Assembly: GCA_938007965.1 (NCBI GenBank)
Contig: CALLMH010000004.1
Coordinates: forward strand, 1 to 64,000
Length of the DNA stretch: 64,000 nt
Source of the DNA: an uncultured Saprospiraceae bacterium
GTDB lineage: Bacteria; Bacteroidota; Bacteroidia; Chitinophagales; Saprospiraceae
Reading direction: 5' to 3'
Under the pieces are notes generated by a model. It saw only the letters and a program-made list of their open reading frames with translations, was not told where the DNA came from and searched no databases. Of this stretch, positions 6,001 to 60,957 are shown in pieces; position 1 is the first letter of the stretch; every line of letters starts with the position of its first letter. The translations under genes were made by a program, and so were the position numbers.

Positions 6001-7687
6001 AATCAGTGTCCCGCTTCCTGATGTCGAAGGGAGTATGAGTAATCATAAAGTAACATGGAAAGTATCTGATGGATGTAACAATGTAACGAGTTGTACTACG
6101 AACTTCATGGTAGTAGATAAGAAAGCACCTACTCCTTACTGTATAGATATCAGTAGTGCTGTAATGGAAGGTGATGGAACTGTAGAGTTGTGGGCGGTTG
6201 ACTTCAATGTTGGAAGTTTCGATAATTGTACGCAAGATGCTGACCTTAGGTATACATTTACAGATGTAGAGCCTGATCAAGATCCCGACTATGACGAAGA
6301 CCTAAGATCTTCTAGTAAGTTGTTTGGCTGTGATGATGTGTTAAATAGCCCAATAACGGTCAACATGTATGTATGGGATGAAAATGGGAATAGCGATTTC
6401 TGCACGGTGACATTATCATTGGTTGATAACGGAGGATCTTGTGAAGATGGAATGAGGATTGCTGGTTTGATATTGACAGAAGGTGGATTGCCAGTCAATG
6501 ATGTGCAAACTAGACTATTCGCAAACTTACCCGAGTATCCTAGGTTCGATCTTACAGAAGATGATGGTATATATGAGTACTATGGAACGCCTATCAATTC
6601 TGATTTCACTGTTGTAGCGAGTAAAGATATTGATTATACCAATGGTGTAAGTACGCTAGATTTAGTGAAAATACAGAGGCACATTCTAGGTCTAGAAGAT
6701 CTAGATAGTCCATACAAATTGATAGCGGCCGATGTCAATGCTGATGATGATCTGAAAGCAAGTGATTTATTAGAATTGAGGAAGTTGATATTGGGTGTAA
6801 TTATCGATCTACCGACAAACGAATCATGGAGATTTGTAAATGCTGAACAAGAACTTGATATGGAACTTGATCTATCAACAGTGAATTACACTATCGATAT
6901 CGAAAATCTGCAAGAGGATCTGATTGATCAGAATATTGTAGCTGTGAAAGTAGGAGATGTTACTGGTAATGCAACAGCTAATCTAGTGTCGAAAGAAAAT
7001 GTAGAAGTCAGAAGCTCTAACACACTTGAATTCCTGATCGACGACAAATCGGTCAAAAAAGGTGATGTAGTAGAAGTTGACTTCAATGCTAATGATTTCA
7101 AAGATGTATTTGGTTTCCAATTTACATTCGAGTTAAATGGACTAAAAGTTGAAGATGCAACAAGTTCAGTCATAGAATTTTCTCCAGCGAATTTGGGTCT
7201 ATTAAGTGATAGAGTAGTGACAGTCAGTTATCATAGCGGAATAGCGAAGACAGTCGCAGAGACAGAGTCCGTATTTACAATGGTATTCACCGCGATGGAG
7301 GATGGACAACTATCAGAGATGATAGAAGTGACATCGAAAGTTACTGCGGCCGAAGCATACCTTGGAGATGAATTAGAAATTAGGAATGTTTCTATAGTGA
7401 TTAGGGGTGATGTACAGTCGATTGCAGAAAATAATCTTTATCAGAATGAACCGAATCCATTCAAAGATGAAACCTTGATTAAGTACGAACTGGCAAGATC
7501 AGGACCTGTAGTGTTTACAGTGACGGATGTAGCTGGGAAAACACTATATACAGTGACTAGAGAAGGAAGGAAAGGTATGAATACTCTGATACTAGATGCG
7601 GAAGCATTAGGTGTGACGGGGGTATTGTATTATACGATTGAAAATAAAGAATTCACTGCAACTAAGAAGATGATCATTGTGAGGTAG
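2..7687 (+). CDS. Giant T9SS-secreted modular adhesin-like protein (5' end outside window)
   Basis: The reading frame is open to the left edge and the first visible residues are the tail of a repeat, so the gene is truncated at its 5' end. At least 2,560 residues are visible (numbered from nt 5). In order they are: about 156-residue repeats with an AKRL/AKRV core in a DUF11-like style starting near 66, 221 and 378; HYR-like Ig domains from about 541 with further cysteine-bearing copies later; a lamin-tail-like segment (about 707-850); a proprotein-convertase P-domain (about 893-1016); more HYR-like domains; a dockerin-like pair of helices (about 2212-2270); a cohesin-like domain (about 2340-2467); and a type A T9SS sorting domain (about 2476-2560, with NEPNPF). 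The acidic DPDGDDNDGNPDEDG linkers probably bind calcium. Export through the outer membrane by T9SS and an adhesive or matrix role are inferred; no catalytic domain is seen. Confidence 0.9.
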   Translation, partial: AVLLTVEACGCPNGSEIMNSATATGVTPAGDELEDVSVDGSDPDGDDNDGNPDEDGTTDITLEEMGSIGAAKRVVTTDFNDEGCTMVVYEINVENFGNVAIDSVQVTDDLDLAGFGACEDYTVSLTSDDFIVNVDFNGSSDINLLSGLDDLPVGDVGAILLTVEACSCPNGTITNSATVSGVTPAGDELEDVSVDGSDPDGNDNDGNPDEDGTTDIDINNIPSIGLAKRLVEVINNADGSADVSFEFNIENIGNVVIDSIQVMDDLMAAFDPCSDITVLSLVSDDYVVNPDFDGTSDFNLLSGSDSEFPGDKGSIFLIINVDGCGTATGPFENQGTLTGQDPNGNGVMDNSQEGSEVDTDGDGSANDDDEPTLIDFMFDGALGVAKRLSEGPILSTNGCYDVTFEINVENFGTVDIAMLQVVEDLAAVFGTDDIWSVISVESEEFEVNTGFDGVTDINLLTGNDVLISAPNGDNGTIYVKVNVCPSGDTDEYVNSVVANGTLPNGTMVQDTSQNGSTPDPDGNGDPLDNSEGTPFQLECEIPMFTNCPRPNIVVDAPEGWCTSFVNFSSPEATAECGLDTIIQVDNTELSSGDLFPVGTTILQWVAYDIFGNASDTCEIKVIVNDFHTPPTIICPEDAEAVNDFGMCGAVITDSLLPTIEDNCPDNLSIVYEVTNEFGVTLFQGIEDATGETFPGGVSTLTYTVYDQPLLLITEIVQDGASTGIEIGNFGPATVDISCADVSRTDEFGDEVIYNIPNGTVVPVGGVFTYLFNGDFGAGNRATFAFSFTDLLIDEISINEGTLFGDNIIRIDPVDDNDDSDWMVVNDCIEGSFDVFNPELPVYTDNGTMTSLQSKAPSFAECSLTVTVLDIEAPTCASQDTIIFENGSLTLLDGMCATESITVPAGIVGDVNVRDFIATVDNAGGITVLLTSPSGTEITLFSNVCGDSENIMVSLDDSAASSILSATCDPLGNGSTFKPLNAFSSFFGEEGGGDWTLSVYTDGSTMGTIDSWELEVITNAGYTQVDTLLSNDAGLCEAEFAWIHPVFSDNCSEGGIDITYEFVNDVTGISTTETESILTPSGFIDFEGQFVTRSFEVGITTITYTLTDASGNVSNCGFEVTVVDDEAPVFVNGCNDVDIFLEPGSCEGMLPSIPVSEDNCGVDSITFLVDSTQIDINELPIGMNNITLISTDIYGNMDTCTFTANVIEFEADNTSLACNNTINLSLGIDCMAELTPDMILEGGPYGCYDDFCIEVTTETGIVVDNIFDLGDVGQSFTVAITDCLGSGNSCWGTVNIEEKLLPEIECPADVEITCNQDAEERFPIGHPLAGQLITGEAVLLTCEANASIYYVDDIIDNGVCEDPRVQILRRWTVVDNSGNTVSCDQLITVLAYDPLNVTFPQDYDYTVAFSCSEVANNPDTILPEFTGYPMLNDTSIFGNNYCDINVGYWDEVLQDVNCPAAYSILRHWIIENECLPLEEGVNPLRHIQRIKVDDNTAPVLLAVDDITVSVDPWSCRGEIELPDVAHADDCSLIDVQWSVPYGLVQDNMLTNLLVGETVVTARVVDGCGNFGFVSFTVTVVDATPPVVVALQNVIVGLTSSEGNGLAKVFAQSIDNGSNDGCTDVKLEVRRDEDICGISGNTTYNDDGHADDGSPNPNSPSYDPDGGEFVQFCCEDIYNATVDVDGDGILDPGYVKVWLRVWDDGDNDGVFGSDGDNMNEAWSFVKVEDKLEPQITCPSDITIECSDDYTDLDIVGKGTGFGSCGIAEVEYNDIIVNLSDCGDGFVIRRWSIVGRTDIFCDQNITIDPIESTPVTVSFAQVGDFTAEGCPDDIAIGEPTWTGSPCDLIAYSVETDTFLFEDGACYKLVNEYTVINWCTYEPNNPDTDGIWKHTQVVKVTDNTLPDLQNCEDQMYEVNDHDDSDEDGNVCEAHISLLNTATDIGSENCPTGWLKWQVIIDLWGDGTDDYEYNSFLPPFDSQFNDTNGNGIPDVYIAPTASGEQISVPLPDVEGSMSNHKVTWKVSDGCNNVTSCTTNFMVVDKKAPTPYCIDISSAVMEGDGTVELWAVDFNVGSFDNCTQDADLRYTFTDVEPDQDPDYDEDLRSSSKLFGCDDVLNSPITVNMYVWDENGNSDFCTVTLSLVDNGGSCEDGMRIAGLILTEGGLPVNDVQTRLFANLPEYPRFDLTEDDGIYEYYGTPINSDFTVVASKDIDYTNGVSTLDLVKIQRHILGLEDLDSPYKLIAADVNADDDLKASDLLELRKLILGVIIDLPTNESWRFVNAEQELDMELDLSTVNYTIDIENLQEDLIDQNIVAVKVGDVTGNATANLVSKENVEVRSSNTLEFLIDDKSVKKGDVVEVDFNANDFKDVFGFQFTFELNGLKVEDATSSVIEFSPANLGLLSDRVVTVSYHSGIAKTVAETESVFTMVFTAMEDGQLSEMIEVTSKVTAAEAYLGDELEIRNVSIVIRGDVQSIAENNLYQNEPNPFKDETLIKYELARSGPVVFTVTDVAGKTLYTVTREGRKGMNTLILDAEALGVTGVLYYTIENKEFTATKKMIIVR

Positions 7688-18202: not shown

Positions 18203-18395
18203 GTATTTGATATAATGAGGGTATAGAATCTTGGTTTCAAAAACATTTTCATAGAATATGGAAATCATTCGGGAGAATTCTCCCACCCCAATATTCTAAT
18301 AACTATAAACTAGAAAGCCAAAAAACGGAGCGATACAAGCGTGATTTACAATAAGTGGACACGCGAAGTTAAAATCAGATTTAAAAAACAAACAT

Positions 18396-21140
18396 ATGAA
18401 AGATTATTCATACGTATATAATGCACATCCTTCTTTTATAGAACAGATGTATAAAGAATTCCAAAAATCTCCTGAAAATGTAGATAGTGGCTGGAGAACA
18501 TTTTTTGAAGGTTTCGAATTTGCTGGTGTAGGATCAGATGGCGAGGCGAGTTCGGATGGTGGTGTACTTGGTGGAGGAAACGTAACTAAGGAGTTCGGAG
18601 TGCTTTCATTGATTCATGGTTTCAGGACTAGAGGACACCTGCTCGCGAATACCAATCCGATCCGAAAGAGAAAGGATAGAGCACCTCACCTAGATCTCGA
18701 TGATTATGGACTCGTAGATGCTGATATGGATACGGTATTCGCAGCTGGAAAAGAGATAGGACTCGAGAACGGGACACTCAAGCAAATCCTCGATAGATTA
18801 TATCTCCTCTATACAGGGAATATAGGTATAGAATACGCACATATCGAAAATAGAGAAAAAAGAACCTGGCTCAGATCAAAGATAGAGACAATGAATCTCG
18901 ATGGGAGCTACGGATTGAGTCTCGACAAGAAAAAAAGAATACTAGAAAAACTGAACGGGGCAGTAATGTTCGAGAAGTTTTTGCATACAAAGTACGTAGG
19001 ACAGAAAAGATTCTCACTTGAGGGAGGAGAGACTACTATCGCTGCGCTAGATGCTGTGATTACAGCGGCAGCTGCGGATAGAGTAGAAGAAGTTCTTGTA
19101 GGTATGGCGCATAGAGGAAGGCTCAATGTACTAGCCAATATCATGGGCAAAACATACGAACATATATTCAATGAGTTCGAAGGTGTAGCAGTTCCTGACA
19201 TGAAATATGGTGATGGTGATGTGAAGTACCACTTAGGATATAGCTCTCAAGTAAAGACTCCCGCTGGGAATGATGTACACTTAAAGTTAGCGCCTAACCC
19301 ATCACACCTCGAATCTGTAGATCCAGTATTGGAAGGGTTCGCAAGGGCGAAAGCGGACATACTCTATGATAGTGATTATGATAAGATACTACCTATCTTG
19401 ATCCATGGTGATGCTGCAGTCGTCGGTCAAGGTGTAGTATATGAGACTGTGCAGATGAGTCAGCTCGAAGGATACTACACAGGAGGTACACTGCACTATG
19501 TGATCAATAATCAGGTAGGATTTACGACTGATTTCGAAGATGCGCGTTCGTCTACATATTGTACAGCGGCAGCTAGCCTAGTACAAGCACCAGTATTCCA
19601 TGTGAATGGTGATAATCCTGAAGCGGTAGTATGGGCAGCCGAATTAGCCATTGAATATCGTCAGAAATTCAACAATGATGTGTTCATAGATATGGTATGC
19701 TATAGAAAGCATGGCCACAACGAAGGAGATGATCCGAAATTTACCCAGCCAGAGATGTATAAGTCTATTGGCAATCATAAGAATCCAAGAGAAGTATATC
19801 TAGAAAAACTAATATCTAGAGGTGATGTAGAGGGCGAGATGGCGACCAAGATGGAAGAGACTTTCTGGGCAGATCTGCAAGGTAGATTAGATTCTGTAAA
19901 AGAAAAACCTCTGCCGTATTCGTACCAAGAACCAGAAAAATCTTGGCAAAAGCTTCAGAAAAATACCAGATATGAAGATCTGAAAACGGTCAAGACATCG
20001 ATCACAAAGAAGGTGGTGGATACAGTAGTCGATAAGCTGCTCAATCTTCCAGAAGGATTCACGCCACTATCAAAAGTCGCAAGACTACAGAAAGGATCAA
20101 GAAAACTGATCGATGCTAAGAAGATCGATTGGGCATTCGGTGAGTTGATTGCTTATGGATCTATCTTATTGGAAGGTAAGAATGTAAGGATGAGTGGTCA
20201 GGATGTAAAAAGAGGAACATTCTCTCATAGACATGCAGTGCTTAGAGACGTAAAGACCTATGAACAGTACAATAGACTTAGCCAGCTGGCCGAGAAGCAA
20301 GGTAAATACATGATTTACAATTCATTGTTGTCAGAGTTTGCAGTTCTTGGGTTCGAGTACGGTTATTCTCTAGCTTCTCCTGATTCGCTTGTTATTTGGG
20401 AAGCACAGTTTGGAGATTTCTATAATGGTGCACAGACGATCGTGGATCAGTACATATCAGCTGCCGAAAGTAAGTGGCAGCGGATGAGTGGATTGATCAT
20501 GCTACTTCCCCACGGATATGCAGGTCAAGGACCTGAGCATAGTAGTGCGAGAGTAGAGCGATTTCTGCAGTCATGTTCTGATTTCAATATGATCGTAGCA
20601 AATGTAACGAGCCCGGCAAATTATTTCCACTTATTGAGACGACAGCTGGCACTTCCATTCAGAAAACCGTTGGTAGTGATGTCACCTAAGTCACTGCTTC
20701 GTCATCCGAAATGTGTGTCTGATATCTCAGAGCTTACCGGTAAGAATGCTTTCGTAGAGACATACGATGATCCGATTGCGAAACCAGCAAAAGTGAAGCG
20801 TCTATTAATATGTACGGGTAAGGTATATTATGATTTGTTGGCGAAGCAAGAAGAAGACAAAAGAGATGATATAGCCATCGCAAGAGTAGAGCAACTGCAC
20901 CCGTTCCCAGAAGCGCAGGTACGTAAGATTATGTCTAGATATAAGAAGGCTGATGTAAAGTGGGTGCAAGAAGAACCAGCGAACATGGGATATTGGGATT
21001 TCGTAATGAGATACATGAGACGTGACCCGATCGAACTCGTGTCAAGACCAGCGAGTGCTTCCCCTGCCACAGGATTCAAAAAAGTCCATGATAAGCAACA
21101 AGCGAAGTTAGTAGATGCTGCGTTCGATCTGAAGAAGTAA
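18396..21140 (+). CDS. sucA: 2-oxoglutarate dehydrogenase E1 component
   Basis: The thiamine-diphosphate-dependent E1 subunit that decarboxylates 2-oxoglutarate in the TCA cycle. It has 914 residues, close to the usual length. The N-terminal E2-binding-type segment (SYVYNAHPSFIEQMYKEFQK), the HGDAAVVGQGVVYETVQMS block, the ThDP/Mg segment around GHNEGDDPKFTQPEMYK (near residue 445) and the C-terminal transketolase-like domain with EAQFGDFYNGAQ are present. The partner sucB (E2) gene, often next to sucA, is not found downstream; a HupE-like gene follows instead, so E2 must be elsewhere. Confidence 0.96.
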   Translation: MKDYSYVYNAHPSFIEQMYKEFQKSPENVDSGWRTFFEGFEFAGVGSDGEASSDGGVLGGGNVTKEFGVLSLIHGFRTRGHLLANTNPIRKRKDRAPHLDLDDYGLVDADMDTVFAAGKEIGLENGTLKQILDRLYLLYTGNIGIEYAHIENREKRTWLRSKIETMNLDGSYGLSLDKKKRILEKLNGAVMFEKFLHTKYVGQKRFSLEGGETTIAALDAVITAAAADRVEEVLVGMAHRGRLNVLANIMGKTYEHIFNEFEGVAVPDMKYGDGDVKYHLGYSSQVKTPAGNDVHLKLAPNPSHLESVDPVLEGFARAKADILYDSDYDKILPILIHGDAAVVGQGVVYETVQMSQLEGYYTGGTLHYVINNQVGFTTDFEDARSSTYCTAAASLVQAPVFHVNGDNPEAVVWAAELAIEYRQKFNNDVFIDMVCYRKHGHNEGDDPKFTQPEMYKSIGNHKNPREVYLEKLISRGDVEGEMATKMEETFWADLQGRLDSVKEKPLPYSYQEPEKSWQKLQKNTRYEDLKTVKTSITKKVVDTVVDKLLNLPEGFTPLSKVARLQKGSRKLIDAKKIDWAFGELIAYGSILLEGKNVRMSGQDVKRGTFSHRHAVLRDVKTYEQYNRLSQLAEKQGKYMIYNSLLSEFAVLGFEYGYSLASPDSLVIWEAQFGDFYNGAQTIVDQYISAAESKWQRMSGLIMLLPHGYAGQGPEHSSARVERFLQSCSDFNMIVANVTSPANYFHLLRRQLALPFRKPLVVMSPKSLLRHPKCVSDISELTGKNAFVETYDDPIAKPAKVKRLLICTGKVYYDLLAKQEEDKRDDIAIARVEQLHPFPEAQVRKIMSRYKKADVKWVQEEPANMGYWDFVMRYMRRDPIELVSRPASASPATGFKKVHDKQQAKLVDAAFDLKK

Positions 21141-24090: not shown

Positions 24091-25827
24091 CTAGTTCTTG
24101 CTTGTTCTTGAAGCTTTCTGTACTAGGTTGGCTACCTTTTCGTCTTTATCGACATCTAGGTTAGTAGTTTTAGATATATCTTCTCCATCGGTTCTGTATT
24201 CAGTTAAGTCGATACAGAATTTCACTTTTTCTCTTCTTCCAAAGTTACCGTCTGATTCGTAGAATGTATCTCCTTCTTCATCCAAGATAGAGAAACTACC
24301 GTATCCATAATCACAACACATGCCATCTCCATAAGAATCTTTTACGATTAGTCTGTAACATCCATCTTCTAGACAAACATCTTCGTAGATCGTTTCTCCT
24401 ATATCATCAGCTGTGTATCCTCCTCCTGAAATTACGATCTGACCGGTACTAAGATCTTTCAATTTCCAAGTAGTTTCTTCTGGGTAATCATCAAATGTAA
24501 AGCTTAATGTGATATTATAACAATCATCATCTGATCCAGTATCATCATCATTGTCATCAGTATCATCACAAGCATCACCGATACCATCATTGTCACTATC
24601 TGCTTGATTAGGATTAGATACTGTTGGACAGTTGTCTTGATTATTATTTATGCCGTCTCCATCTATATCGTTATTGTTTGTGTCATCACAAGCATCACCG
24701 ATACCGTCATTATCACTATCTGCTTGACTAGGATTAGATACTGTTGGGCAGTTGTCTTCATCATCATCAATTCCGTCATTATCAGTATCATTATCTTCTT
24801 CTTCACTCCCGTCATCACTACCAGAACATACATTACCTATGTTGCTGATTATGTTTTGGAAGTTTGCAGTTACATAGTTATTCATTCTAGATGCTTGACC
24901 ATTAGAGAACATGTACATACATGCATCGTTCGTATAGTCCATATAGCTCATGTATAAGTCTATTGATCCACAAGATGAAGTGTTTGTGCCCGGGCATCCA
25001 TAGTTTGGATCACTTTGAGATGGAGTATCAGATACACCATCATCAGAGTTACATCCCCCATTACCCCAGTTGTGATCTAGTAATAAGTAGTGACCCAATT
25101 CGTGCGTGAGTGTACGACCGAGGTTGTAAGGTGCTTGTGGCACTACACCACTACATCCTGATCCACTACCAAAAGCCGCAGCATCAATGACTACTCCATC
25201 TCCATTACCCGATCCTCCAAGAGGAGAATATCCCAATAGTCCTGTATTCGGTTGTACAAAGATATTGATATATCCAGACCATGTAGGTGAGTTGTCGCCT
25301 GAAGTAGCATTGAATGTTACAGCAGGTTCTCCATCTGCTATACCTGACGCTGATGGGTGTCCTTTATCTGCAAGACAAAACTTGATACAAGCATCACTTG
25401 GTGTCACACCTGGGTAATTGCTAGCTACTGCATCGAAGAGACTAGCATCTGCATTTTGAGCTTGATAATCGGCATTTAAGATGTCAATTTGGTTCTGAGC
25501 GAGTGCTTTGAGACACGCTTCATCCGGATTACTTAATCCTTGGAAGTGAACTGCGATCGGTAGAACGATAGGTTCTGTACAATCTACTACACTTCTTGTT
25601 TGGATAAGTTTGTCTGTTTTTTCTACTCTTTTTTCAAAGCTAGCTCTATAGTCTTCATCTTTTAGTAAGCTGTGTTGGTGGCCTTCTGTACTACAAGTAC
25701 GTTGGCTGTATGCGGTCTGTGCTTCAGATAATTCTGTAACTTCACTTGATTCTGTTATTTGATCTTCATTACAAGAAGTAAGGAAAAGGGCTGTAGCTAT
25801 AAAGCAGTAATAAATGATATTTTTCAT
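24091..25827 (-). CDS. M43-family (pappalysin/cytophagalysin) metalloprotease lipoprotein with TSP3 repeats
   Basis: An exported zinc protease of 578 residues. A lipoprotein signal (LTSC lipobox near residue 19) predicts membrane anchoring. The zinc motif [11 protein letters not shown] is near residue 240 and the M43 Met-turn [19 protein letters not shown] follows. Residues about 345-425 are acidic thrombospondin type 3 calcium-binding repeats ([13 protein letters not shown]). The C-terminal about 115 residues form a Cys-rich beta domain with [15 protein letters not shown]. No T9SS sorting domain is visible, which is unusual for this family in Bacteroidota. It is divergent from the sigma factor gene at 26138. 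Confidence 0.88.
24561..24760. repeat. Tandem TSP3-encoding DNA repeat (120-bp period)
   Basis: About 78 bp starting at 24561 recur almost identically at 24681, exactly 120 bp (40 codons) away, inside the M43 protease gene. The high nucleotide identity suggests a recent duplication or gene-conversion event within the calcium-binding linker. Confidence 0.75.
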
Positions 25828-35430: not shown

Positions 35431-35594
35431 ACAAGCGTGGCTTACGTTGTAAACGCGCGAGCCCTTGTTATAGAAAATTGAAAATTTGCGGGACAAGCGT
35501 GGCTTACGCAGTAAACGCGCGAGCCCTATTAGCAAGCGTGGCTTACGCATTAAACGCGCGAGCTCTTTTAGCAAGCGTGGCTTACGCAGTAAAC
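35431..35594. repeat. Array of four 34-bp imperfect palindromic repeats
   Basis: Units at 35431-35464, 35493-35526, 35532-35565 and a truncated one at 35571-35594 share the core CAAGCGTGGCTTACGC and, in the first three, AAACGCGCGAGC. Each full unit folds as GGCTTACGC paired with GCGCGAGCC (one mismatch, one G-T wobble) around a 7-nt loop. Spacers are 28, 5 and 5 nt. The GC-rich units contrast with the AT-rich surroundings and fill the gap between nadE and the paaG-like gene. Confidence 0.85.
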
Positions 35595-58022: not shown

Positions 58023-59006
58023 CTAAATCAATCCAGTAATCCCAAGCCTAATACCTCCCCAACTGGCGGGTCCAAGTGATGCAATCTCTTTCGTGATGTG
58101 GCTTCTGTAATATTCTAAATAGATATATTCCGTCTGCAGTATGATGCCATAATTTACTTGACCTACGATTCTTGATATCTCATTTGCCGAAATTACATGT
58201 ACGCTATTATCAGAAAATAAATCCCCCTGCAACGTACCATCATACCCGACTAAGCTTACCGTCGTATGTAAGTAAGTATAGATTTTGAATTTCTTTTGTT
58301 GATCATTTTTATATGGATTATGGAGGAGACCAAGGCTAGAATTAAACCCCACTGATGCCTTAGTGTACATGTTCCCAACCATTGCTGAGCCATTTGCAGC
58401 AATATTGAAGTAATCACTAACTCTCAACATTTCTTTCTCATAATCTATACCATAATTGATAATTGGGTGATCCTGTATTTGATTGTCCCATCCTCTCGGA
58501 ACTCTCCCGTTCGTAGCTTCATGGATGCTTGTTTGTATTTCTTTTCCGAGGCCTGCGGGACCTATGATGCCAATACTGAGATGGGATGCTAGTCTTTGTT
58601 TTGATTCTTGATTGGTAGATATGCTGAAACTCTTCAGATAAGCGGCTCCGGCAAACGGTCGGTCATCTTCTTGAATCTCAACCTCATCATATTTATCTGG
58701 CGTAAATCCTAGATGCTCGAATACTATGCCTGCCCTTCTATCGTCATTTCTTAGATTAAAGAACAATTTATTGATCGGATTTCTAGATAATATTGGCGAG
58801 ACAAATTCTAGACTATAGCCTTGTGTATAATTTTTATCTTGCTGAGCAAATAGGTCGTTGTCATAATTGATTCTGAAGTATACCTCACCTGATATTTCAC
58901 GGAAGGATGCTAAGTTATCAATCTTCTGTCCATGACTTATCGTACATATGAATAAAAGAGATAGTACTAATATAATTCTCATACCGATATAACGATTACG
59001 GATCAA
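58023..59006 (-). CDS. LpxR-like outer-membrane protein (DUF2219)
   Basis: A 327-residue outer-membrane barrel with signal peptide 1-26. The strand NYDNDLFAQQDKNYTQGYSLEF holds Asn50-Asp51 and YTQG, corresponding to the Asn-Asp and Tx-rich start of LpxR, and DDRPFAGAAYL is the second family mark. LpxR removes the 3'-acyloxyacyl group of lipid A in a calcium-dependent way; catalysis in this protein is inferred only from the family. The divergent repeat region lies at its 5' side. Confidence 0.82.
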   Translation of the reverse strand: MIRNRYIGMRIILVLSLLFICTISHGQKIDNLASFREISGEVYFRINYDNDLFAQQDKNYTQGYSLEFVSPILSRNPINKLFFNLRNDDRRAGIVFEHLGFTPDKYDEVEIQEDDRPFAGAAYLKSFSISTNQESKQRLASHLSIGIIGPAGLGKEIQTSIHEATNGRVPRGWDNQIQDHPIINYGIDYEKEMLRVSDYFNIAANGSAMVGNMYTKASVGFNSSLGLLHNPYKNDQQKKFKIYTYLHTTVSLVGYDGTLQGDLFSDNSVHVISANEISRIVGQVNYGIILQTEYIYLEYYRSHITKEIASLGPASWGGIRLGITGLI

Positions 59007-59427
59007 TTACTGTTCGAATATTCTCGGTAACTCTCATAGGTAATTATCAATCCTGATAGCTATACAGATCGTTTTCCCGCGACTTTAGGGCTTTTCTTTC
59101 TGGGATTGGCTCTTGGGTACAGATCGTTTTCCCGCGAATCGGTGATTCGCTACAAAAAGCCGATCTATGATTCACTACAAAAGCCGATCTATGATTTGAT
59201 ACAAAAGCTGATCTATTTTTTTCTGATTTAATTTGGAGCCTGTACTGAGATCGTTTTCCCGCGAATCGGTGATTTTCTTTCTGGGATTGGCTCTTGTGCA
59301 CAGATCGTTTTCCCGCGAATCGGTGATTCGCTACAAAAGCCGATCTATGATTCACTACAAAAGCCGATCTTTGATTCACTACAAAAGCTGATCTATTTTA
59401 TTTACTTTTATCATATAAAATAGATGT
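59007..59427. other. Divergent intergenic region filled by repeats
   Basis: 421 nt between the LpxR-like and TPR genes. About 330 nt of it consist of the two repeat types described next, so both promoters are close to or inside the repeats. Confidence 0.7.
59064..59396. repeat. Compound repeat array: four 17-19-bp and six 24-bp units
   Basis: The unit AGATCGTTTTCCCGCGA occurs at 59066, 59121, 59248 and 59302. Downstream, 24-bp units of the type GATTCACTACAAAAGCCGAT... occur at 59144, 59169 and 59193, then at 59325, 59349 and 59373. A stretch of about 125 bp (59091-59216) is duplicated as 59274-59396. CGAATCGGTGATTCG folds as a 6-bp hairpin with a 3-nt loop in copies two and four. The period of 24 keeps a minus-strand frame open, but no gene is called. 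Confidence 0.85.
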
Positions 59428-60957
59428 ATGAAATATTCAATATACTTACTTGTAATTTCTTTTTTGCTCATACAGTGTGCGGACAAACAAAGCTCGATAT
59501 CAGAGGATTCTACTCTGGGGAAAATAGAATTTGATGTAACAGGATCCGATAAGGCATTGCCTTTATTTGAGGAAGGATTATTATTACTGCATAGCTTTGA
59601 GTTCGAAGATGCTGCAGAAAAATTTGTCCAAGCACAGGAAATCGATTCTGATTTTGTGATGGCATACTGGGGGGAAGCGATGTCTTACAATCATCCGCTA
59701 TGGAGAGAACGCTACACAAAAGAAGGTGCCGCAGCGCTCAATAAATTAGCCAAAACTCTAGAATTACGACTCGAAAAAGCGAAAACACCGATAGAACGAG
59801 ATTTATTACAGGCCGTAGAGATACTTTATGCACAAGGAGATAAGACAAAACAGGATATAGCCTATGCCGGTAAGATGGAAGAACTTCATAGGAAATATCC
59901 TGATCATCACGAAGTATCGGCATTCTACGCACTGTCTCTCTTAGGATCCTCGAAAAGCCGAAAAGAAGATGATAATTATGAACGTGGAGCTAAAATCGTA
60001 CAAGGCATTATAGACGAAAATCCTCAGCATCCTGGTGCGCTACACTATTTAATTCATTCTTATGATGATCCAGATCATGCACCTCTGGCACTAGATGCTG
60101 CAAATAGATACTCGAAGGTAGCACCTGATGCCGAGCATGCATTGCATATGCCTTCTCATATATTCGTCGCACTAGGAATGTGGGACGAAGTGATCAAGTC
60201 GAATATAGCCAGTTATAATGCAAGTGTAGAAAGAATGAAAGAAAAAGAACTCGACAATGATGCGAGAGGGTATCATGCATTTAAGTGGTTGATGTATGGT
60301 TACCTACAGAAAGGAAATTTCGATAGGGCGAGAGATTTGGTCTATGATATGAAAAAGTATTGTGATGAAAAACCATCGAGTAAGGCCAGGTCTCACTATA
60401 TCATGATGAAGGCCAGTTACTTGATAGAATCCGGCAATTGGGCTGATTCTATAGCAGATCAAGTGGTGGATTTGGACGAACTGAACTTACTTACCAAGGG
60501 CGTTCAGATTTTTACTCAAGGAATGTTAGGCTACAAGACAGGTAATGTCGATCAGCTAAATGCTGCCATCCATGAATTGAATACCATCCAATCCAATGCA
60601 GAAAACCGAATGGTCGTAGGTGCACCCAAAATGTGCAGTGGCGTATCTAGTTACAAACAACCACCATCAGTCAATGAAGTGAACAGTGTGAAAGTACTGA
60701 GTTATGAATTGCAGGCTGTGCTCGCATTATATAAAAAAGAGGAAAAAGAGGCCGAAAAATGGATGAAACGAGCCACAGAAACGGAAGAAGGTACAAGATT
60801 TACATATGGTCCGCCCAATATAGTAAAACCATCTTTTGAGATGTATGGAGAGTGGCTACTAAACCAAGGACGTAATAATGATGCCAAAGCTCAGTTCGAA
60901 AAAGTCTTAGAACGCGCTCCTAAGAGGAAATTGGCGTTGGAAGGAATGGGGGTTTAA
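59428..60957 (+). CDS. Tetratricopeptide-repeat lipoprotein
   Basis: A 509-residue exported lipoprotein (lipobox LLIQC, Cys17). Several TPR motifs are spread over the length (about 43-76, 170-215, 285-320, 430-505). The segment HPGALHYLIHSYDDPDHAPL and the following DAEHALHMPSHIFVALGMWDEV form a histidine-rich core characteristic of a broadly distributed uncharacterised TPR family. The histidines could bind metal, but no enzyme activity is known to me. It is followed 75 nt later by a sigma-factor gene. Confidence 0.83.
   Translation: MKYSIYLLVISFLLIQCADKQSSISEDSTLGKIEFDVTGSDKALPLFEEGLLLLHSFEFEDAAEKFVQAQEIDSDFVMAYWGEAMSYNHPLWRERYTKEGAAALNKLAKTLELRLEKAKTPIERDLLQAVEILYAQGDKTKQDIAYAGKMEELHRKYPDHHEVSAFYALSLLGSSKSRKEDDNYERGAKIVQGIIDENPQHPGALHYLIHSYDDPDHAPLALDAANRYSKVAPDAEHALHMPSHIFVALGMWDEVIKSNIASYNASVERMKEKELDNDARGYHAFKWLMYGYLQKGNFDRARDLVYDMKKYCDEKPSSKARSHYIMMKASYLIESGNWADSIADQVVDLDELNLLTKGVQIFTQGMLGYKTGNVDQLNAAIHELNTIQSNAENRMVVGAPKMCSGVSSYKQPPSVNEVNSVKVLSYELQAVLALYKKEEKEAEKWMKRATETEEGTRFTYGPPNIVKPSFEMYGEWLLNQGRNNDAKAQFEKVLERAPKRKLALEGMGV

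Follow-up and report, generated by a model that had tools for sequence, protein, structure and literature searches.

A compound repeat array between LpxR-like and TPR genes in a Saprospiraceae genome and the hairpin family to which it belongs

Pneumococcal BOX elements are composed of the modules A, B and C, arranged in the order boxA-(boxB)n-boxC. GTAG repeats are reported from Proteobacteria, Cyanobacteria, Chloroflexi and the PVC group in the accessible part of a survey (Di Nocera et al. 2013) that lists Bacteroidetes with CGTC repeats and not with GTAG repeats (PMC3733652). For TnpA-REP subclasses 2.4 and 2.6, the taxa listed in the portion of the source at hand include Bacteroidetes; subclass 2.4 goes with canonical GT[AG]G REPs, and subclass 2.6 with 'atypical secondary structures' that have copies elsewhere in the host genome (PMC6006769). 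The BrickBuilt repeat is described, in the available text, as 23-nt tandem units at 19 sites in one strain and with variable copy number (PMC4596501). The array reported here resembles BrickBuilt of Porphyromonas gingivalis, as far as that partial description goes, in its Bacteroidota host, its intergenic seat, its tandem units (24 nt versus 23 nt) and its predicted long stem-loops (PMC4596501). Within the terms searched, none of the open-access titles and abstract openings listed describes such repeats in Saprospiraceae.

The window, meaning the whole stretch of DNA analysed, comprises bases 1-64000 of contig 4 of an uncultured Saprospiraceae genome (the source genome, G000), a draft assembly of 4,189,211 bases in 113 contigs. 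Our main reading, to which we give a probability of about 0.8, is that the array between its LpxR-like and TPR genes belongs, as one of several sites, to an intergenic family of scattered hairpin-forming repeats that are apparently non-coding, and that it has grown locally and is probably incidental to both neighbours.

Anatomy of the array

The repeat array spans 59066-59394 of the window (329 nt) and is far beyond chance expectation. The first-pass annotation had described it as a compound repeat with hairpins filling a divergent 5' gap, and this description was borne out. Its four copies of a 17-19-bp unit correspond to four exact copies of GATCGTTTTCCCGCGA (starts 59067, 59122, 59249 and 59303), whereas none of 100 dinucleotide shuffles of the window reached four matches with up to three mismatches. 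Its two blocks of three 24-bp units were found as three-copy tandem arrays at 59143-59216 and 59324-59396. The duplication of about 125 bp was likewise recovered, 59092-59216 and 59273-59396 being identical at 118 of 125 positions, compared to at most 51% in letter-shuffled controls of the pair (n=200). This duplication is part of a larger one, in which 59066-59216 and 59248-59396 agree at 138 of 151 positions (91%). The two blocks of ~150 nt lie 182 nt apart, and each consists of a left arm, a spacer, a complete hairpin and two extra right arms.

The counts of the 17-bp and 24-bp units thus stood, but their separateness did not, as both are arms of one imperfect palindrome of 45-46 nt, with the 17-19-bp unit on the left and the 24-bp unit on the right. 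In the window array, cut at the shared ends, the palindrome reads AGATCGTTTTCCCGCGAATC, a 3-nt loop and GATTCGCTACAAAAGCCGATCT. From the outside inwards, its parts are an outer stem, an internal loop that is asymmetric, a 7-bp inner stem and a terminal loop of 3-4 nt. The internal loop is 3x4, with CCC opposite TACA, and the other strand carries GTAG...CGGG. The minus-strand order is GTAG-CGAATC-loop-GATTCG-CGGG, where GTA lies in the internal loop closed by the outer stem and the last G is paired. A repeat finder run on the window array reported no inverted repeats, which we ascribe to the indels by which the arms differ. Folded as RNA, the array was more stable than its shuffles on both strands, with z at -4.1 for the minus strand and -2.7 for the plus strand, and none of 100 shuffles of either strand equalled it. 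Within the window no Rfam model was matched at gathering score, and an Rfam search of 15 loci at E up to 0.5 returned two tRNAs only.

The features of the gap and of its flanking genes are listed below. R1 and R2 denote a hairpin model and a broader version of it.

58023-58982, minus strand: LpxR family outer-membrane protein gene (Pfam PF09982, E 1.8e-56)
59047-59379, minus strand: 110-aa open frame through the array, containing the octapeptide RSAFVVNH; judged a by-product of the 24-nt period
59066-59082, plus strand: left arm copy 1 (AGATCGTTTTCCCGCGA), right arm absent
59083-59120, plus strand: T-rich spacer s1; of its last 29 letters, 27 are common to the C3 array (by-eye count)
59121-59166, plus strand: complete hairpin 1, 46 nt, loop GGT (R1 66 bits; R2 46.8 bits)
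59167-59214, plus strand: two extra 24-nt right arms; the unit is RSAFVVNH-type on the minus strand
59215-59247, plus strand: T-rich spacer s2
59248-59264, plus strand: left arm copy 3, right arm absent
59265-59301, plus strand: spacer s1, second copy
59302-59346, plus strand: complete hairpin 2, 45 nt, loop GGT (R1 72.9 bits; R2 47.5 bits)
59347-59394, plus strand: two extra 24-nt right arms
59428-60957, plus strand: TPR protein gene (Pfam)

The LpxR start was taken at an ATG; as listed, its ORF starts further out, at the TTG of 59006. The first-pass identification of the flanking genes as LpxR-like and TPR agrees with their Pfam matches, and the two are transcribed divergently.

A dispersed hairpin family with covarying stems

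The genome search for the 17-bp and 24-bp units that the first-pass annotation had proposed was run with BLAST and pattern search. The palindrome unit builds four arrays in the source genome, the one in the window (on contig C4) and three more:

C3 array: between a PpiD-like gene and purA
C22 array: between metG and a TPR membrane protein gene
C66 array: between an OmpA/NMT1-domain gene and the gene for a 338-aa protein

The 16-nt left arm gave 19 matches in this genome with up to two mismatches, and the pattern read backwards gave none. The terminal loops (GGT, TAGG, CGT and TAAG) are the same in most complete copies of a site and different between sites. Mean hairpin identity was 94.5% within sites (19 pairs) compared to 90.9% between sites (72 pairs), a modest difference. 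These site-typical loops and the within-site identity suggest local growth with homogenisation. In each array, single arms and a larger block would have been duplicated locally in tandem, and the copies within a site may have been kept alike.

As for GTAG REPs, the copies are dispersed and mainly intergenic. The 31 listed R2 matches in the source genome (of 34) fall at 13 sites on 11 contigs, a low copy number for a REP. Among 34 sites classed in three genomes, a set that left out contig-end sites and some loci fetched later, 29 are clear of any ORF of 120 aa or more and 5 were called inside one; for at least one of these five, the frame is made by the repeats themselves. Genes are present on both sides of 31 sites, where 21 gaps are co-directional, 8 divergent and 2 convergent, so divergent gaps are not the rule. 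The strict CCC/TAYA form is sparse, with none in ~400 kb of source-genome DNA outside the window and one in 398 kb of the congener G001; the R2 matches listed for those same stretches numbered 0 and 5. Stretches were sampled by place, and the G001 contigs included three already known to carry the family.

A second R2 match in the window lies on the minus strand at 35465-35496 (42.1 bits), beside a 39-bp tandem array at 35494-35594. In 35465-35594 as a whole, a 39-bp unit that forms a simple hairpin (GTTTACTGCGTAAGCCACGCTTG on the minus strand) is repeated in tandem ~2.6 times, and a CCC/TATA hairpin borders the repeats. The genes on its two sides are presumably NAD-synthetase-like and enoyl-CoA-hydratase-like. 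Elsewhere in the window, at 24563-24802, two 120-bp tandem units with 83% matches have the look of a duplicated coding stretch.

The congeners G001 and G002 have related hairpins whose stems differ. At E up to 0.05, R1 gave 30 matches in the source genome, 36 in G001, 20 in G002 and none in G003; for R2, with 150 candidates scored per genome, the counts in these four genomes were 34, 57, 84 and 0. In 16 other genomes, 14 had no R2 match and two had one weak match each. The family is present in three of four genomes of the genus (Saprospiraceae) and, in these searches, is confined to that genus. Since every genome here is a draft, array lengths may be misassembled. An array on contig C41 of G002 occupies the same gap as the C66 array of the source genome. 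Its inner stem is changed in both complete hairpins, and its outer stem is AGACCG/CGGTCT in one and kept as AGATCG/CGATCT in the other.

In a BLAST of a 70-nt piece, 26 of 60 relatives matched at E up to 1, mostly over stretches of ~15-25 nt that we take for chance; clear matches were those in the source genome, G002 and G001, with the right arm also matched in G033, a genome of another genus. An exact search for the left arm in named genomes and viral contigs, a set that possibly excludes the source genome, returned nothing. A gapped core search found 16 stretches, 12 in the G001 MAG, one in another Saprospiraceae MAG (locus L194) and one each in Segetibacter, a Eubacterium MAG and Paenibacillus, of which the last three may be chance. 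R1 over 199 family genomes gave three weak single matches (G092, G101 and G164); the misses of this search say little, because 30 candidates were scored per genome under strict filters and G001 was missing from the list. In G033, loci L093-L101 and L108-L113 hold some twelve copies of a motif of the TTCGCTACAAAAGCCGATCT type, several of which, by eye, lie in a larger palindrome of the type GAGCTTGTTTGGAGG...CCTCCAAACAAGCTC. This motif is possibly distant kin of the right arm.

To describe the stems, 19 hairpins (set A1) were aligned to a 17-pair structure. In this set 97.2% of cells were paired. Seven A1 pairs had changed on both sides, a count reached by 5 of 500 shuffles. The covariation score was 0.291 compared to 0.111 in shuffled alignments (0 of 500 reached it), and further pair types showed no excess (11 versus 10.5 in shuffles; 251 of 500). 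Sliding the partners by one column reduced pairing to about half. The second set (A2) comprised 40 distinct cores, each required to have CCC and TAYA, no more than one mispair in the inner stem and three or four of the four outer pairs; nine further cores, some of them mispaired, were left out by hand. The loci of this set, and those scanned and counted below, came from a model with the loop built in, so the invariance of the loop and the percentage of paired cells are largely by construction. All 11 of its 11 pairs had changed on both sides (2 of 500 shuffles reach this), and its covariation score was 0.711 compared to 0.225 (0 of 500).

In weaker matches both stems differ and the internal loop stays CCC opposite TACA or TATA. 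A scan for this loop plus pairing found 23 hairpins in 11 source-genome loci, 23 in 28 G001 loci and 20 in 13 G002 loci; the same scan with each of four altered loops found none. In the window it found three hairpins, compared to 0 or 1 in each of 20 dinucleotide shuffles and none with five altered loops. A further count in the fetched repeat loci named no loop and took in every hairpin with a 3x4 internal loop, a perfect inner stem of 7 bp and a perfect outer stem of 4 bp. CCC/TAYA made up 17 of 26 in the source genome, 16 of 41 in G001 and 19 of 38 in G002, with at most two of any other type. When 6-bp inner stems and loops of 3-4 were used, CCC/TAYA fell outside the top five loop types, which we ascribe to most members having 7-bp stems. 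Judged from these alignments and scans, the window array is one site of a dispersed hairpin family whose stems covary.

Gene context and alternative readings

The TPR-side edge of the array lies 33 nt from the TPR start codon. Orthologues of the TPR gene are present in all three congeners, with an array upstream in none and, within the up to 1.5 kb inspected, an LpxR neighbour in none. The final ~30 nt before the TPR start are alike in the source genome, G001 and G002 (common TTACTTTTA), and directly adjoin the array edge in the source genome. Similarly, purA is present in all three congeners and the array is absent from all three; a block conserved upstream of purA starts a few bases from the edge of the source-genome array. 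The metG gap of G002 holds other members of the superfamily (R2 matches at C192:7471, 7637 and 7681, with the end of metG near 7437), and the metG contigs of G001 and G003 had no R2 match among the matches listed.

In G001 and G002, pattern search placed many hairpin copies inside a conserved element with the ends TTAAATTTTTATTT and AAATAAAATTTTAA. This leader has a base form of ~147 nt and in G001 holds expandable hairpin arms. Our set comprises 16 gene-sense copies among the fetched loci, from G001, G002 and one other MAG, with one antisense row dropped:

Leader copies in G001: L089, L091, L156, L161, L163, L196, L209, L211, L212, L214, L216, L217, L232
Leader copies elsewhere: L226 and L228 (G002); L194 (another Saprospiraceae MAG)

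In 15 of the 16 copies the end of the leader is followed, after 3-5 nt, by an ATG, and the downstream genes are unrelated by eye. Approximate counts of left and right arms range from 0/0 to 7/3 and appear to rise together. In L194 and L217, short leaders stand behind an array-bearing leader. One leader-borne array of G001 has 5 left and 3 right arms; before the same gene, which we take to be topoisomerase-like, the related MAG has 4 and 3, with a second leader between. The difference between 5 and 4 left arms in two related genomes makes expansion or contraction of such arrays plausible, as judged from this one gene. No Rfam match to the leader was found in the loci tested. We treat the leader observations, including the likenesses in the source genome given below, as a lead.

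Two leaders in a row also precede one gene in L194:300-830 and L316:15480-16060, where the upstream copy has its own ATG and a very short frame. The repeated stretch of L194 includes ATGAAAGTC, as if one duplication had taken in both the leader and the opening codons of the gene. Weak likeness to the leader was seen upstream of genes of the source genome, metG among them, at L293:10834-10890, at L052:2301-2353 and in the window at 18223-18267. The last of these lies upstream of a gene starting at 18396, presumably 2-oxoglutarate dehydrogenase E1-like.

The first-pass annotation had suggested that changes in the array could alter the promoters of LpxR and TPR. A cis-regulatory promoter array of variable copy number would suit a filled divergent gap that ends so close to the TPR start codon, the difference in left-arm number between the related leader arrays, and the bidirectional promoter activity reported for BrickBuilt in Porphyromonas in the part of that study available (PMC4596501). 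The wider context argues against it. The family adjoins unrelated genes in both orientations, and the congeners keep the TPR gene with neither the array nor, in the sequence inspected, LpxR beside it. A sigma-70-type scan of 58800-59600, which does not cover Bacteroidota promoters, found one site, inside the TPR gene, compared to 3.4 expected. We consider a dedicated promoter array improbable, and the claim of control over these two genes was not upheld; any effect of the array on LpxR or TPR is probably incidental. The array was also rejected as a terminator, as no terminator-like site was found in 58800-59600 and orientation to the neighbours varies among the four arrays. A second claim, that the 24-bp period keeps a minus-strand frame open, holds for the array in the window and fails in the other three arrays of the source genome. 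Read as coding, the frame of 110 aa would specify a short repetitive protein of RSAFVVNH repeats, and one plus-strand frame (79 aa) does stay open throughout the C41 array of G002. The C3 and C22 arrays have at least three stops in each of the six frames, and the C66 array is stopped in all six as well, with its longest open run on the opposite strand relative to the repeat. The frame is thus not kept across copies, and Pfam gave no match to it at an E value of 0.001 or below. A protein-coding repeat is rejected as very improbable, and the frame probably does not represent a gene.

The hairpins have presumably spread to new gaps, and their anatomy resembles that of single-strand hairpin repeats moved by HUH/Y1 enzymes. 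The GTAG, short hairpin and CGGG of the minus strand, together with clusters, compensatory stem subfamilies and an intergenic seat like those in the accessible part of PMC3733652, would fit a GTAG-type REP moved single-stranded by a REP-associated tyrosine transposase (RAYT/TnpA-REP). Two full-length Y1_Tnp genes are present in G001 and two in G002, but in a separately drawn sample of the family Y1_Tnp occurs in 110 of 150 genomes, which makes its presence little informative. The source genome has no Y1_Tnp over the cut-off, and the 4-5 kb retrieved around each of the four full-length genes contained no CCC/TAYA hairpin. The nearest pairing is a partial Y1_Tnp match (G002:C192:4494-4697) ~2.8 kb from a hairpin, with metG between, and no mobilising enzyme was found near the hairpin family in the loci examined. 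The GTAG, moreover, sits inside the outer stem and not at a free hairpin foot. No RAYT gene flanked by the hairpin was found in the source genome, G001 or G002, drafts in which a capped scan could have missed a REPtron. We regard this reading as doubtful. G003, which is without the hairpin, has partial or weak Y1_Tnp matches only. One Y1_Tnp gene of G033 and a TTTTCGCTACAAAAGCCGA-type motif are ~1.3 kb apart; this link was rejected as the flanking repeats differ, and no CCC/TAYA hairpin was found in 15 G033 loci.

Template switching in quasi-palindromes can yield paired changes in the absence of selection. The family could be neutral debris of this kind, a palindrome that template switching has perfected and slippage has lengthened, having neither recogniser nor function. 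This would fit its sparse, genus-limited distribution and its absence from the congeners at TPR and purA. Against it, such correction should erase the mismatched CCC/TACA loop, yet many stems carry it, in loci that were themselves chosen by the loop. We see neutral debris as a real contender that falls short of an even chance. A bolder reading is of a structure-defined repeat family of Bacteroidota in which both stems turn over by compensation while the 3x4 loop (CCC/TACA, hiding GTAG) is held fixed by a putative reader, an ssDNA nuclease or an RNA-binding partner, and in which, in the sister genomes, a two-armed minisatellite in a leader abutting the start codons of unrelated genes would set, by arm number, the length of a 5'-UTR hairpin. 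This is possible but tentative, and the recogniser of the internal loop is postulated. On the main reading, any incidental effect on LpxR or TPR may come from untranslated RNA copied off the hairpins or from an altered spacing to promoters nearby.

The main reading turns an apparent promoter curiosity into a repeat family that can be searched by structure. Its members form a natural series of different stems around one internal loop, and make it possible to ask whether REP-like hairpins of Bacteroidota have a recogniser and, if so, which. An array-bearing leader before many unrelated genes would, if transcribed, offer a testable example of 5' untranslated regions remodelled by repeats.

Comparison with known repeat systems

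GTAG REPs, as the available part of their survey describes them, are short GTAG-tagged palindromes with stems of 6-13 bp and loops of 2-3 nt in many families; they are mainly intergenic, show complementary stem changes and form clusters that take in flanking DNA (PMC3733652). The present family is similar in all of these respects. It differs from that description in having the GTAG inside the outer stem, a 3x4 internal loop and no linked RAYT found (PMC3733652). In contrast to E. coli-type REPs and TnpA-REP, so far as the accessible text of that source describes them, the motif here is within the palindrome and no cognate enzyme is known (PMC8266576). The structures of subclasses 2.4 and 2.6 adjoin a transposase gene in the portion of the source available, whereas in the loci fetched here no hairpin was within 2.8 kb of Y1_Tnp (PMC6006769).

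An intergenic seat, host limitation and variable copy number, the last from one comparison of related arrays, are shared with BrickBuilt. The leader and tail of BrickBuilt, with their small inverted ends, resemble the leader element of G001 and G002, as far as the partial text allows (PMC4596501). By eye, the source-genome arrays showed no leader or tail with inverted ends, whereas pattern search finds such ends in the G001 and G002 elements. BrickBuilt is described there as one direct 23-nt unit, whereas here left arms accumulate to the left and right arms to the right of a hairpin (PMC4596501). Likened by description to the accessible account of pneumococcal BOX, the family is similarly interspersed, has extensive secondary structure and is found in close relatives only; some large BOX elements also open reading frames on both strands (PMC3049150). 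Filed as a member of none of these systems, the family is judged to work like REP, BOX or BrickBuilt repeats.
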